From Pseudoxanthomonas sp. J35 (GTDB lineage: Bacteria; Pseudomonadota; Gammaproteobacteria; Xanthomonadales; Xanthomonadaceae), in contig NZ_AZVB01000020.1 of the NCBI RefSeq assembly GCF_000513995.1, forward strand, positions 1 through 64,000: a stretch of 64,000 nt of DNA. Direction: 5' to 3'. Positions 10,150-29,914 of this stretch are shown in pieces (within the stretch, counting starts at the first letter, position 1; each line of letters opens with the position of its first letter). Made by a program: the position numbers and the translations under genes. The notes beneath the pieces were generated by a model that did not search any database, was not told the origin of the DNA, and saw only the letters and a program-made list of their open reading frames with translations.

Positions 10150-11238
10150 ATGAACAAGAAACTTCTGACCGCTGCGCTGCTCGGCGGCCTCGCCGTTGCG
10201 CAGGCTGCTTCCGCGCAGGAGTTCGACGACCGCTGGTACCTGACCGGTTCGGCGGGATTCAACTTCCAGGACAGCGACCGCGGCACCGAGGACGTTCCCT
10301 TCCTGACCCTGGGCATGGGCAAGTTCATCAGCCCGAACTGGTCGCTCGATGCCGAGCTGAACCACCAGAACCCGGGCCTGAACAGCAACAAGCACCTCAA
10401 CTGGAGCCAGTACGGCGTCTCGCTGGATTTCCGCCGCCACCTGATCCAGGAAGGCCGCGCGTACAACCCGTACTTCCTGTTCGGCGTCGGCTACCAGCGC
10501 GCCGAGGAAGAGTGGGACGCGTTCCCGAGCCCGGATTCGCCGCAGCAGCGCGAGGAAGGCAACCTGGCCGCCAAGGTCGGCGTCGGCCTGCAGACCACCT
10601 TCGACAGCCGCGTCGCCGTGCGCGCTGAAGTCGCCTACCGCGCCGACTTCGACGACCGCAGCGTCAACGCCCCGAACGAAGACTGGTTCGGCGACGTCCT
10701 GGCCTCGATCGGCCTGGTGATCCCGCTGGGCCCGGCCCCGGTCGCCGCCCCGCCGCCGGCTCCGACCCCGGTCGCCCCGAGCTGTGCCGACCTGGACGAC
10801 GACGGCGACGGCGTCAACAACTGCGACGACAAGTGCCCGGGCACCGCTGCCGGCACCATCGTCGGTCCGGACGGCTGCCCGGTCCCGGTCTCGATCGACC
10901 TGAAGGGCGTGAACTTCGACTTCGACAAGGCCACCCTGCGTCCGGACGCCCTGGCGATCCTGGGCGAGGCGACCGAGATCCTGCGTCGTTATCCGGAGCT
11001 GCGCGTTGAAGTCGCCGGCCACACCGACCTGTGCGGTCCGGACGCCTACAACCAGAAGCTGTCGGAGCGTCGCGCCAAGACCGTGTACGACTACCTGACC
11101 AGCAACGGCATCGACGCCTCGCGTCTGGCCGGTCCGGTTGGCTACGGCGAGAGCCGTCCGCTGGAGCCGACCCCGCAGACCCTGCCGGGCTGCAAGAGCG
11201 AGACCAACCGCCGTACCGAGCTGAACGTCCAGAACTGA
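10150..11238 (+). CDS. ompA: OmpA-family outer membrane protein
   Basis: A 362-residue outer membrane protein with a signal peptide (residues 1-22, cleavage after ASA). An N-terminal beta-barrel of about 180 residues is followed by a Pro/Ala-rich hinge and then a Cys-containing calcium-type repeat (CADLDDDGDGVNNCDDKCPG). The C-terminal OmpA-like peptidoglycan-binding domain (FDFDKATLRPDA, VAGHTDLCG, NQKLSERRAKTV, YGESRPL) carries the conserved Asp and Arg that contact diaminopimelate. It anchors the outer membrane to the wall, as in E. coli OmpA or Pseudomonas OprF, and is closest in layout to OprF. A strong ribosome site (caaggagctacacg) and a strong terminator suggest high expression as a single gene. 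Confidence 0.92.
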   Translation: MNKKLLTAALLGGLAVAQAASAQEFDDRWYLTGSAGFNFQDSDRGTEDVPFLTLGMGKFISPNWSLDAELNHQNPGLNSNKHLNWSQYGVSLDFRRHLIQEGRAYNPYFLFGVGYQRAEEEWDAFPSPDSPQQREEGNLAAKVGVGLQTTFDSRVAVRAEVAYRADFDDRSVNAPNEDWFGDVLASIGLVIPLGPAPVAAPPPAPTPVAPSCADLDDDGDGVNNCDDKCPGTAAGTIVGPDGCPVPVSIDLKGVNFDFDKATLRPDALAILGEATEILRRYPELRVEVAGHTDLCGPDAYNQKLSERRAKTVYDYLTSNGIDASRLAGPVGYGESRPLEPTPQTLPGCKSETNRRTELNVQN

Positions 11239-11261
11239 TCGGACGCCAAGCTGCAAGACCA

Positions 11262-11293
11262 CAAGGCCCGGCATCGCCGGGCCTTGTTTTTTT
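11262..11293 (+). terminator. Rho-independent terminator of ompA
   Basis: Arms caaggcccggc (11262-11272) and gccgggccttg (11276-11286) with a 3-base loop are followed by an uninterrupted run of Ts at 11287-11293. A textbook intrinsic terminator, 24 bases after the ompA stop. Confidence 0.92.
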
Positions 11294-11390
11294 CCGGGCG
11301 GCGGCGCGGCGCCGCGCGCGAAAACGTGCGCGCGCTGGCAACTGCACGCTCCGGCCTGCATTCGTCCTTGAATCGACCCCGGGCGCTGCC

Positions 11391-11396
11391 TACACT
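11391..11396 (+). promoter_or_regulatory. Probable -10 box (TACACT)
   Basis: TACACT followed by a CG-rich cggtcg lies 35 bases before the ATG at 11426. The same arrangement (TAGACT) precedes two other members of this protein family at 12866 and 13376. Confidence 0.45.
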
Positions 11397-11425
11397 CGGT
11401 CGCATTCCTGTCCTGGAGCATCCCC

Positions 11426-11893
11426 ATGCGCGCTCTTGCCGCCGCCTTCTTCGGCCTCGCCCTCATGCCGGCCGCCGCGATCGCCGCGCCGGACTGCTCC
11501 GGCTCCTCGCTGCAGCAGCCACTGCCGCTGGCGTCGACCGCGGTCGTGCCGGTGGCCATGGAACTGGGTTCGCGTACCTCGCAGCTGGGCATGCCCAGCG
11601 GCGTGCTGACCCCGGAGTTCGACAGCGCGCAGTCGCTGGACCGCGTGCTGCTGCGCCTGCGCATCGAGAACTGCCGCAACGTCGCCAAAGCGCTGCCGGC
11701 GGCCTACAAGCCGAAGACCGAGTTCGACAACACGCCGTGGCGCTTCAACATGACCCAGGACGGCAAGCGCATGACCGTCGACGAGTTCGAGGCGTGGATG
11801 AAGGCCCGCGGCGCGCGCGTGGCCACCGGCAAGCCGACCACCGCCACCCCGGCGGCCGCGCCTGCGGCAGCGACCGCGGCGCCGGCGAACTGA
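11426..11893 (+). CDS. Exported hypothetical protein with WRFNMTQ...WMKARG motif (paralog 1)
   Basis: A 155-residue protein with a Sec signal peptide (residues 1-20, AIA cleavage) and Cys at residues 24 and 83 that could pair in the periplasm. The C-terminal motif WRFNMTQDGKRMTVDEF, then EAWMKARG, lies at residues 105-130, ahead of an Ala/Thr/Pro-rich tail. I do not recognise a domain family. The motif is repeated in two lipoproteins at 12964 and 13412, so the three form a paralog set. This copy has an extra ~80-residue N-terminal domain not seen in the others. It ends 16 bases before the pseudouridine synthase gene and may be cotranscribed with it. A tggag ribosome site precedes the ATG. Confidence 0.8.
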   Translation: MRALAAAFFGLALMPAAAIAAPDCSGSSLQQPLPLASTAVVPVAMELGSRTSQLGMPSGVLTPEFDSAQSLDRVLLRLRIENCRNVAKALPAAYKPKTEFDNTPWRFNMTQDGKRMTVDEFEAWMKARGARVATGKPTTATPAAAPAAATAAPAN

Positions 11894-11909
11894 ACCTTCC
11901 CGGTCTGCC

Positions 11910-12728
11910 ATGAAGGGCGGGACGCGCTCCCGTCCGCCGGGGCCAAAGCCTTCGGGTAAACCCGCCGATGCACCGCGCCGGCATGGCCTGGCGCGGGTGC
12001 TGTCGAAGGCGGGCGTGTGTTCGCGCAGCGAGGCCGAGCGCTGGGTCCGTGCCGGGCGCGTGCGCGTTGGCGGCCGCGTGGTCCTCGATCCGGAGCATCC
12101 GATCGATGACGGCATGCGCCGGGTCCAGGTCGAAGGCCTCGACGCCCAGCCGCCGCGGCGACATTACCTGGTGCTCAACAAGCCGCGCGGCCTGGTCACC
12201 ACCGCGCGCGACGAGCGTGGCCGCGACACGGTCTACCGCTGCCTCGACGGCAGCGGCCTGCCATGGCTGGCGCCGGTCGGGCGGCTGGACAAGGCCAGCG
12301 AAGGCCTGCTGCTCTTCAGTAACGATCCGGAGTGGGCGGCGCGGGTACTGGATCCGCAGCACGGCCCGGAGAAGACCTACCACGTGCAGGTCGACCAGGT
12401 GCCCGATGCGGCGCTGCTGGCGGCGCTGTGCGAGGGCGTGGGGGAAGAGGGCGAGCGGCTGCGTGCGAGGTCGGCGGTCTTGTTGCGCAGCGGCACGCGC
12501 AATGCATGGCTGGAGATCGTGCTCGACGAGGGCCGCAACCGGCAGATCCGCCGCCTGCTGGCGGCCTTCGGGGTTGGCGTGATGCGCCTGGTGCGGGTGG
12601 CCATCGGCGACCTGCAGCTGGGCACGCTGGGCAAGGGCCAGTGGCGGGAACTCGACGCGGGCGAACGCGATGCGCTGGCGCCGGCCTCCGCCGATGCCGG
12701 CGAATCCGCACGCGGCGCCGCGAACTGA
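11910..12728 (+). CDS. RsuA/RluB/E/F-family rRNA pseudouridine synthase
   Basis: A 272-residue cytosolic enzyme that isomerises one uridine in ribosomal RNA. After a basic N-terminal tail comes an S4 RNA-binding domain (residues ~27-75, LSKAGVCSRSEAERWV), then the catalytic domain. The family motif VGRLDKASEGLLLF contains the catalytic Asp, NKPRGLVTT is the motif I region, and GRNRQIRRLLAAFG is the RsuA-family C-terminal signature. I cannot say whether it acts on 16S (RsuA) or 23S (RluB, RluE, RluF) rRNA. It follows paralog 1 of the exported family by 16 bases, which may be incidental. Confidence 0.88.
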   Translation: MKGGTRSRPPGPKPSGKPADAPRRHGLARVLSKAGVCSRSEAERWVRAGRVRVGGRVVLDPEHPIDDGMRRVQVEGLDAQPPRRHYLVLNKPRGLVTTARDERGRDTVYRCLDGSGLPWLAPVGRLDKASEGLLLFSNDPEWAARVLDPQHGPEKTYHVQVDQVPDAALLAALCEGVGEEGERLRARSAVLLRSGTRNAWLEIVLDEGRNRQIRRLLAAFGVGVMRLVRVAIGDLQLGTLGKGQWRELDAGERDALAPASADAGESARGAAN

Positions 12729-12865
12729 ATCCGCCGTCATTTCCCGCGTCCCCGGAAGCGGGGAGGGGACGGACTTTCCACCGCGCACGCTTGCCAGCTT
12801 TCTTCCGCATTAACGGCTTCCCGGCCCGCCATCGCCGCCGACGCTGGCGTCGCGCATCCAGCGCC

Positions 12866-12871
12866 TAGACT
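12866..12871 (+). promoter_or_regulatory. Probable -10 box (TAGACT)
   Basis: TAGACT lies 98 bases before the lipoprotein ATG at 12964, with a REP element between them. Without the REP-bearing insert the spacing would be close to the 35-36 bases seen for the two related genes. Confidence 0.4.
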
Positions 12872-12919
12872 GCGGTATCGCCCGCGGCTCCCCCATGCGC
12901 CCACGCACATCCGGCGTGG

Positions 12920-12942
12920 GAGTCGGGCAAGCCCGACTCTAC
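12920..12942. repeat. GTAG-type REP element in a 5' leader
   Basis: The inverse-orientation REP gagtcgggcaagcccgact, then ctac, sits between a predicted -10 box and the start codon of a lipoprotein gene. The transcript should carry this stem-loop in its 5' untranslated region. Confidence 0.8.
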
Positions 12943-12963
12943 GGGCGCACCGCCGGAGCCGCC

Positions 12964-13278
12964 ATGCCCACGACAATCGCGCCCGCACGCCTTCTGGCCA
13001 CGCTTGCACTCGCCGCACTGGTGGCCGGCTGCGCCGGCAACCGTGTCCGCGAACCGGTGGTGGCCGAGGTCGTGGAGGAGGATCCGGAAGCGGTCATCCT
13101 GCTCGACCCGGACGACCCGTACGCCTACCGCTTCGACATGGAGCAGGAGGGGGTGCAGATGACCGCCGACGACTTCGATGCCTGGATGAAGCGCCATGGC
13201 ATGAAGATCAGCAAGGGCGCGCCCGCCATGGCGCTGCCCGATCCGCCCCCGGCCCTGCCGGAACCGCCGGCGGACTGA
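12964..13278 (+). CDS. Lipoprotein with YRFDMEQ...WMKRHG motif (paralog 2)
   Basis: A 104-residue predicted lipoprotein. Its signal peptide ends in the lipobox LVAGC, with Cys23 as the lipidated residue. An acidic linker (EVVEEDPEAVILLDPDD) leads to the motif YRFDMEQEGVQMTADDF, then DAWMKRHG, at residues 55-79, and a Pro-rich end. The ATG at 12964 is preferred to one at 12895, because the longer version would be translated through the REP element and would bury the signal peptide. A cggagccgcc site precedes it. It belongs with the genes at 11426 and 13412. Function is unknown; the Asp after the lipidated Cys that favours inner-membrane retention is absent (Ala follows), so outer membrane is likely. 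Confidence 0.78.
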   Translation: MPTTIAPARLLATLALAALVAGCAGNRVREPVVAEVVEEDPEAVILLDPDDPYAYRFDMEQEGVQMTADDFDAWMKRHGMKISKGAPAMALPDPPPALPEPPAD

Positions 13279-13375
13279 GCGCGGGCGCACGCTTCGCGCG
13301 GGACGCCGGTGGCAAGCTGCGAATCCGCTTGGGCGCCGGGGCTTGCAGGCATGTTTTTCCGCTCCCGGACGAGGC

Positions 13376-13381
13376 TAGACT
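13376..13381 (+). promoter_or_regulatory. Probable -10 box (TAGACT)
   Basis: TAGACT followed by cgcctcgcc lies 36 bases before the ATG of paralog 3 at 13412. It has the same sequence as the box before paralog 2. Confidence 0.45.
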
Positions 13382-13411
13382 CGCCTCGCCGCATCTCCGG
13401 GGGAAGTCCGT

Positions 13412-13750
13412 ATGTCCAGCACCGAACGCGTCGTCCGCGCCTGGCTGATCCTGTCCGCCACGGCCATGCTCGCCGCCTGCGCCAGCATCCGCGAACAGCC
13501 CGGCGCGCAGGCCGCACAGGCCGTGCCAGCGCCGGCCGCCAAGGCGGCCGATGCGAAGGACGCATACACCTACCGCTTCAACATGACCCAGAACGGCAAG
13601 GCCATGAGCGCCGACGACTTCGACGACTGGATGAAGGCCCGTGGCCTGCGCGTGTCCAAGGGCCCGGAAGAGGGCAAGAAGGACGGCAAGCTCGTCGCGC
13701 AGAACCCGGACAGGAACAAGTCGAAGAGCCGCGACAAGGGCTCCGACTGA
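13412..13750 (+). CDS. Lipoprotein with YRFNMTQ...WMKARG motif (paralog 3)
   Basis: A 112-residue predicted lipoprotein with a signal segment ending MLAAC (Cys23). An Ala/Pro-rich linker leads to YRFNMTQNGKAMSADDF, then DDWMKARG, at residues 54-77, and a very basic, Lys-rich tail (about 35 residues). The ATG follows a good gggggaag site. Of the three paralogs this one is closest in motif sequence to that at 11426 and closest in architecture to that at 12964. The basic tail could contact lipopolysaccharide or nucleic acid, which is speculation. No known domain was recognised. Confidence 0.8.
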   Translation: MSSTERVVRAWLILSATAMLAACASIREQPGAQAAQAVPAPAAKAADAKDAYTYRFNMTQNGKAMSADDFDDWMKARGLRVSKGPEEGKKDGKLVAQNPDRNKSKSRDKGSD

Positions 13751-13800: not shown

Positions 13801-15000
<1,200 letters not shown>

Positions 15001-15171
15001 CACAGATCCTTGTTCGGAAAGGGAAAGCGCCCATTCTAAGCCGGCCGCCCGGGCCACGCCGGCTTAATGGCCATCGGCTATAAGGGGTGGCCCCTGATTC
15101 ATTTCCCGTGGTCAAGCTGAATAGGGACTATCCTGTTACCGGCCATGGGCCATGACGCAGGGGCAAGGGCA

Positions 15172-28885: not shown

Positions 28886-29914
28886 GTGGATACCACCCTG
28901 AAACAACGCCTGATCGGCGGCGCGGTCCTGGTCGCGCTGGCGGTCATCTTCCTGCCCATGCTCGTGCAGGGGCCGGCCCCCGACAGCGGCGTGGCCGACG
29001 TCTCGACCCGCGTGCCGCCGACGCCCGGCGGCGAATACGAAACCCGCGAACTGCCGCTGGTGCCCGGTGCCGCGGATCCGGCGTTGCCGGCGCCGGCGAG
29101 CGAAGCGGCGCCCGCTCCGGCCGAAACCACGGCCCAGGACGCGGTCGCGCCTGCGGCAGCCGGCAAGCCCGATCCGGCGGAAGCCGCCGGCCAGTGGGCG
29201 GTGACCTTCGGTGCCTACGCCAGTGCCCGCGACGCCGACACCGTGCTGTCGCGGCTGCGCCAGGCCGGCCTGGAAGGCTTCAAGGAAGAGGCCGAACTCA
29301 ACGGCCGCAAGGCCTGGCGCGTGCGCGTGGGGCCGTACCCGGACCGTGCGCTGGCCGAGGCGGGCCGCCTGCAGGCGGTGCGCATCCGCAGCGACGTCAA
29401 CGCGCAGGTGATCGCGCTGGATGCCGGCAACGCCGCCACCGGCACGGCGTCCGCGCCCGCCACCGCGGCCGCAACCCCCGCTGCCAGCCAGCCGGCGCCG
29501 GCTTCGAGCCAGCCGGCCGCCACGGCACAGGCGTCGGCGACGAAGACCGAAGCCTTGCCGGCGGAAAGCAAGCCAAAGCCCGCCACCCCGCCCGCGCAGC
29601 CGGCGCCGGCGCCGGCGAAGGCCACCACGGCCACCACGGCCACCACGCAGGCACCGCCGCCCACCGCGCCGGCGGCGTCCGGCGTCGGCTTCGCCGTGCA
29701 GCTGGGCGCGTTCTCCAGCGCCACCGAAGCCGACGCGTTGCGCGACCGCCTGCGCGGCGCCGGCTACAGCGCCATCGTGCAGCCGGTGCGCACCGACAAG
29801 GGCACCCTGCATCGCGTGCGCGTCGGCCCGGTGGCCAGCCGCGCCGAGGCCGAGCAGCTGAAGTCGCGCCTGGCCCCGGGCTTCGGCGCCGGCATGGTGG
29901 TGCCGCACCCGTGA
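28886..29914 (+). CDS. dedD: SPOR-domain cell-division protein (DedD-like)
   Basis: A 342-residue single-pass inner-membrane protein with a membrane anchor at residues ~8-27 ([19 protein letters not shown]). The periplasmic part holds two SPOR domains, one at residues ~95-170 ([18 protein letters not shown]) and one at ~265-340 ([18 protein letters not shown]). They are joined by a 90-residue Ala/Thr/Pro linker with short repeats. SPOR domains bind denuded septal glycan strands and recruit the protein to the division site. E. coli DedD has one SPOR domain, so the doubled domain is a lineage feature. The start is GTG 28886 after a gcgagg site. It lies between folC and cvpA. Confidence 0.86.

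Follow-up and report, generated by a model that had tools for sequence, protein, structure and literature searches.

A protein module of about 35 residues, almost certainly genuine and not described in any of the libraries searched, is encoded by three genes (here A, B and C) of the window, i.e., the whole 64-kb stretch of DNA that was analysed, and was found in 147 of 149 sampled Xanthomonadaceae genomes (135/135 of those of good quality), usually in one to three copies. At least four different carriers were observed, namely protein A, the small proteins B and C, the septal lytic transglycosylase RlpA (rare lipoprotein A), and a lipoprotein with an OmpA_C domain. The family, including Xanthomonas, Stenotrophomonas and Lysobacter, thus gains a defined, nearly universal and previously unannotated module, and several 'hypothetical' exported proteins are tied to the well-studied RlpA and OmpA, which makes the function of these proteins directly testable.

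Four genes are encoded on the plus strand between ompA and a gene that, from its sequence, we take to be kbl: A, an RsuA/RluB-type pseudouridine synthase, B and C (Table 1). The start positions given for A, B and C in the preliminary description are correct, and signal sequences and lipoboxes were read as it proposed, for one Sec-exported protein and two lipoproteins. The three genes do cluster; however, they are not strictly adjacent as described there, because the pseudouridine synthase, a conserved neighbour that does not carry the module, separates A from B. Protein A consists of a conserved N-terminal part, the module at residues 98-134 (approximately) and an Ala/Pro-rich tail; its orthologs share a predicted helix (residues 67-89, in the conserved N-terminal part) as well as a pair of conserved cysteines (C24 and C83) that may form a disulfide in the exported protein. 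B and C each have a signal peptide with a lipobox ending in Cys and are predicted from sequence to be lipidated, and the orthologs of C in the family are lipoproteins or Sec-exported proteins. The leader of B contains a GTAG-tagged palindromic repeat, GTAGAGTCGGGCTTGCCCGACT (12921-12942, minus strand), present in 245 copies genome-wide at ≤2 mismatches (reversed control, 0), and repeats of this kind belong to the described REP/SMAG type (PMC3733652). Terminator-like hairpin sites, one of which lies between ompA and A, are as numerous in the region as expected by chance.

Table 1. Coordinates of genes, module copies and putative regulatory elements in the ompA-kbl region of the window.
Feature	Position	Strand	Basis and remarks
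ompA	10150..11238	+	Pfam: OMP barrel, TSP3-like, OmpA_C; found upstream of A in conserved synteny
Terminator-like hairpin and T run, between ompA and A	11261..11287	+	12 pairs
Probable sigma-70 promoter of A (TTGAAT, 17 nt, TACACT)	11368..11396 (box 11391-11396)	+	sequence
Gene A	11426..11893	+	ORF, 155 aa, Sec signal; orthologs aligned; present in almost every family genome
Module copy in A (TEFDNTPWRFNMTQDGKRMTVDEFEAWMKARGARVATG region)	11717..11827	+	profile match, E 5e-26
Pseudouridine synthase, RsuA/RluB-type	11910..12728	+	Pfam PseudoU_synth_2 and S4; TIGR00093; synteny
TAGACT box upstream of B	12866..12871	+	
Gene B	12964..13278	+	ORF from ATG 12964, GGAG upstream; 104-aa lipoprotein, lipobox LVAGC
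Module copy in B	13108..13227	+	profile match, E 3.2e-23
TAGACT box upstream of C	13376..13381	+	
Gene C	13412..13750	+	ORF, 112-aa lipoprotein, lipobox LAAC
Module copy in C	13553..13669	+	profile match, E 4.7e-25; predicted beta-hairpin plus helix
kbl (presumed)	13801-15057	-	downstream of C

The pattern by which the module was originally noticed, [YW]RF[ND]M.Q.G..M[ST].D followed by [DE]F[DE].WMK.[RH]G near the C-terminus, is present letter for letter in A, B and C (WRFNMTQDGKRMTVDEFEAWMKARG, YRFDMEQEGVQMTADDFDAWMKRHG and YRFNMTQNGKAMSADDFDDWMKARG, respectively). The core of the module reads RFxMxQxGxxM[TS]AxEFDxWMKxRGxRVA[TK]G; this core spans about 30 residues, and the conserved unit in A, at about 37, is longer than the 25-30 residues first assigned to the motif. 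When the C motif was used as query against the 3.24-Mb genome from which the window derives, A (E 2.7e-10) and B (E 7e-11) were recovered and nothing beyond them fell below E 0.28, and motif search and profile search agreed on exactly three copies in this genome. Chance resemblance of the three motifs was ruled out by these E-values together with the conservation of the module.

Searches for known domains bore out the statement that no named domain has this pattern. Comparison of A, B and C with Pfam and NCBIfam gave only sub-threshold noise and nothing above cut-off, so that the Pfam match named in the preliminary description as the finding that would count against it did not appear; domain scans of 34 A orthologs gave no credible family (two isolated sub-threshold matches), and a sequence search of the PDB returned noise, the best match being PvdO at E 0.17. 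None of the three proteins matched SPOR or LysM profiles at E up to 1, and DPBB_1 is absent from all three in Pfam, which places them outside the RlpA family. The family libraries searched thus offer no annotation for A, B or C, and they show no domain in the RlpA segment that carries the module. Fold searches with structure models gave nothing credible, as expected from weak models, and text searches, in a coverage that excludes most subscription journals, found no paper on proteins of the A/B/C type. A phage or plasmid origin of the module was considered and set aside: no credible match was obtained in PHROG, and no copy of the module was found in IMG/VR contigs, phage records or plasmids.

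The module was found in Xanthomonas, Stenotrophomonas, Pseudoxanthomonas, Luteimonas, Lysobacter, Arenimonas, Silanimonas, Thermomonas and Vulcaniibacterium, and its absence from related genera, the second finding that would have weighed against the preliminary description, was thus not observed. In the rest of the order, only one genome, from another family (G152), gave a credible match, with the A profile at E 2.4e-6. This outlier homolog (L165/L224, 6392-6931) is apparently exported, is encoded directly behind an ompA homolog, and may represent the ancestral form. Because the pair of ompA and A is also seen in this other family, the pair seems to be older than the Xanthomonadaceae, and the module itself seems to have spread inside the family. 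A search of 369 genomes of the class yielded nothing further apart from one cytoplasmic chance match. Among individual matches outside the family, reading of the translations identified one as a cytoplasmic HTH-type protein (G631) and one as an unrelated protein (G000:C14), and three others (G183, G211 and G355) were noise.

The named genera share the gene order ompA, A, pseudouridine synthase, (C), kbl. At 75/80 named loci ompA lies upstream of the module gene; at four of the five exceptions (L082, L085, L095 and L147) a contig end is close to the gene, and the fifth (L115) has no ompA in the stretch examined. The pseudouridine synthase and kbl usually follow downstream, and many genomes have a C-type gene between these two. 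A B-like second copy was present at one of five sampled loci of the same genus (G136), the others having a single copy, and B is probably a duplicate of C.

Among the 34 A orthologs, pN/pS was 0.16 in the module compared with 0.68 in the signal, 0.55 in the N-terminal part and 0.65 in the tail, and this contrast, along with the ortholog comparisons, agrees with the original observation that the motif is conserved while N-termini and linkers differ. Synonymous sites in the A orthologs vary freely (pS 0.47), which indicates that selection acts on the protein and rules out conservation at the level of DNA. The identity of the A and C modules was 0.68 both within and between loci, as counted with an approximate typing of A and C by a simple pattern in the N-terminal part; this equality indicates old paralogs that have been kept separately rather than converted copies, and recent copying of the module was rejected on the same ground.

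The window contains four copies of TA[GC]ACT, and three of them precede A, B and C, as the preliminary description had stated. The box of B lies 93 nt before the likely start of the gene, with the repeated palindrome in between. Among module genes classed as A, TACACT or TAGACT was found 15-70 nt upstream in 40/65, and in many other A orthologs this place is taken by TAAACT, TAAGCT or TATGCT, which TTGAA often precedes at a distance of about 17 nt. No clear -35 accompanies the boxes of B and C, and a strict sigma-70 promoter scan reported no promoter for any of the three genes. Judged by sequence, the boxes look like -10 elements of ordinary sigma-70 promoters. A special regulon box was considered and rejected; although TA[GC]ACT is rare in the window, its variation among orthologs is that of a -10 element. 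The boxes lend no support to the co-regulation raised in the preliminary description, as they fit a generic -10 and orthologs often carry variant hexamers.

The profile also matched RlpA, where the module is placed after the DPBB transglycosylase domain and before SPOR. RlpA-type matches were obtained in 26/54 family genomes of the profile search; 23 of these 26 coincide with RlpA coordinates, and the remaining three genomes fall outside the set with such coordinates. In one such carrier (L153) the module is flanked by DPBB_1 (5e-24) and SPOR (2.4e-9), the domain composition of the RlpA family. The core in RlpA is RFDMxQDGxxMTADEFDAWMKxRxVRVATGKP, and the DNTPW part that precedes it elsewhere is missing. 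In the genome of the window RlpA has lost the module, and when a module-bearing RlpA is aligned with it, the alignment skips exactly that segment; the loss extends to RlpA of the same genus, and the RlpA module has decayed in several other lineages and genera, which indicates that it is dispensable there. At 28886-29914 (plus strand) the window itself encodes a DedD-like protein with two SPOR-like segments, in the order folC, DedD-like, CvpA-like, and this protein was matched twice by the SPOR part of RlpA.

The position of A is occupied, in Lysobacter spongiicola, in L. arseniciresistens and in a relative, by a lipoprotein in which the module is followed by a TSP3-like stretch and OmpA_C. Furthermore, the end piece of the module, [VI]ATG[KQR]P, is repeated alone up to six extra times in the linkers of RlpA and of the OmpA_C fusion. 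Such extra hexapeptides were seen at L110 and L234 and at the RlpA loci L155, L192, L193, L200 and L218. The occurrence of one module in the unrelated envelope proteins RlpA and OmpA_C fusion is a new point that favours a docking module.

AlphaFold models were poor overall (pLDDT 59-60). Part of the motif in the C model reached pLDDT 81-85 in a chain that is otherwise of low confidence, and it consists of two short strands followed by a helix; the A model gave a helix only. The module is accordingly predicted to form a beta-hairpin plus helix, with moderate model confidence for the motif part alone. The salt-bridged helical hairpin proposed initially is not what the sole confident stretch of the C model gives, and the model speaks weakly against it.

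The chances appear evenly balanced that the module serves as a dock by which its carriers all attach to the same partner, at the interface of outer membrane and peptidoglycan. According to this model, the module would be a small independent unit of about 35 residues, set on flexible Ala/Pro-rich linkers of proteins that, from their export signals and lipoboxes, are expected in the periplasm and outer membrane of Xanthomonadaceae. The partner would more likely be a protein than a glycan, since two carriers have a wall-binding domain already (SPOR and OmpA_C), since the module is confined to a single lineage, and since the RlpA of P. aeruginosa acts through many protein partners (PMC9712689). 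A and B/C would then carry the same dock in free or membrane-tethered form, and might act as adaptors for RlpA and the OmpA-type anchor or compete with them. As for the cell-envelope binding module on different stalks first suggested, its envelope part is strengthened by the RlpA and OmpA_C carriers, and binding itself is still a conjecture. More tentatively, and on balance doubtfully, soluble A, the lipoproteins B and C, septal RlpA and the OmpA-type anchor could form a Xanthomonadaceae-specific, family-wide docking system that converges on one receptor and coordinates outer-membrane attachment with wall cutting. Weighing against docking are the loss and decay of the module in RlpA described above and the weakness of the structure models, and gene shuffling, instead of one common function, could account for the envelope context that the carriers share.

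The main rival to docking on a common partner, though a rather unlikely one, is that the module binds peptidoglycan (or LPS) directly and serves as an extra wall anchor, as LysM, SPOR and OmpA_C do for peptidoglycan. Every carrier is periplasmic or in the outer membrane, two of them own known wall-binding domains, and wall-binding modules are often found in combination, all of which is consistent with direct binding; however, the module has no similarity to any known wall-binding domain, it is strongly restricted to one lineage whereas peptidoglycan is not, and the search of phage genomes, in which wall-binding domains are frequent, did not find it. It is improbable that the module is instead a regulatory or proteolytic recognition segment that governs the turnover or activity of carriers such as RlpA, because near-invariance over about 30 residues and a predicted fold exceed what a cleavage site or degron needs, even though the module of RlpA sits in the linker between catalytic and targeting domains and the linkers of RlpA and of the OmpA fusion contain separate repeats of its short end piece, VATG[KQ]P. 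A terminal sorting or secretion signal for a lineage-specific export system would suit the near-C-terminal position of the module in A, B and C, but is very hard to reconcile with variable tails of roughly 15-60 residues after the module and with its internal position in RlpA and the OmpA fusion. Least credible of all is a degenerate EF-hand-like calcium site, which N-G..M[TS]..EF..WM resembles by eye (second half of the loop plus helix), since there is no Pfam match at E up to 1, the loop is one residue too long for the 12-residue loop with acidic positions 1, 3 and 5 and Glu 12, the third loop position is T/S/N/H/E with no conserved acidic residue, and a strand rather than a helix precedes the loop.

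Among known systems, RlpA (DPBB plus SPOR) itself carries the module in about half of the sampled Xanthomonadaceae genomes, whereas RlpA outside the family gave no module match in the class search, and both DPBB and SPOR are missing from A, B and C. With the OmpA family the association is one of gene neighbourhood at the 75 loci noted above and, in some Lysobacter, of fusion to OmpA_C (PF00691); no sequence relation between OmpA_C and the module was detected, and A lacks both barrel and OmpA_C. Although the module differs from SPOR and LysM in giving no profile match, in length, in the predicted order of strands and helix, and in its confinement to one family plus one outlier, it resembles them in being a small, repeatable unit hung on the linkers of periplasmic proteins.
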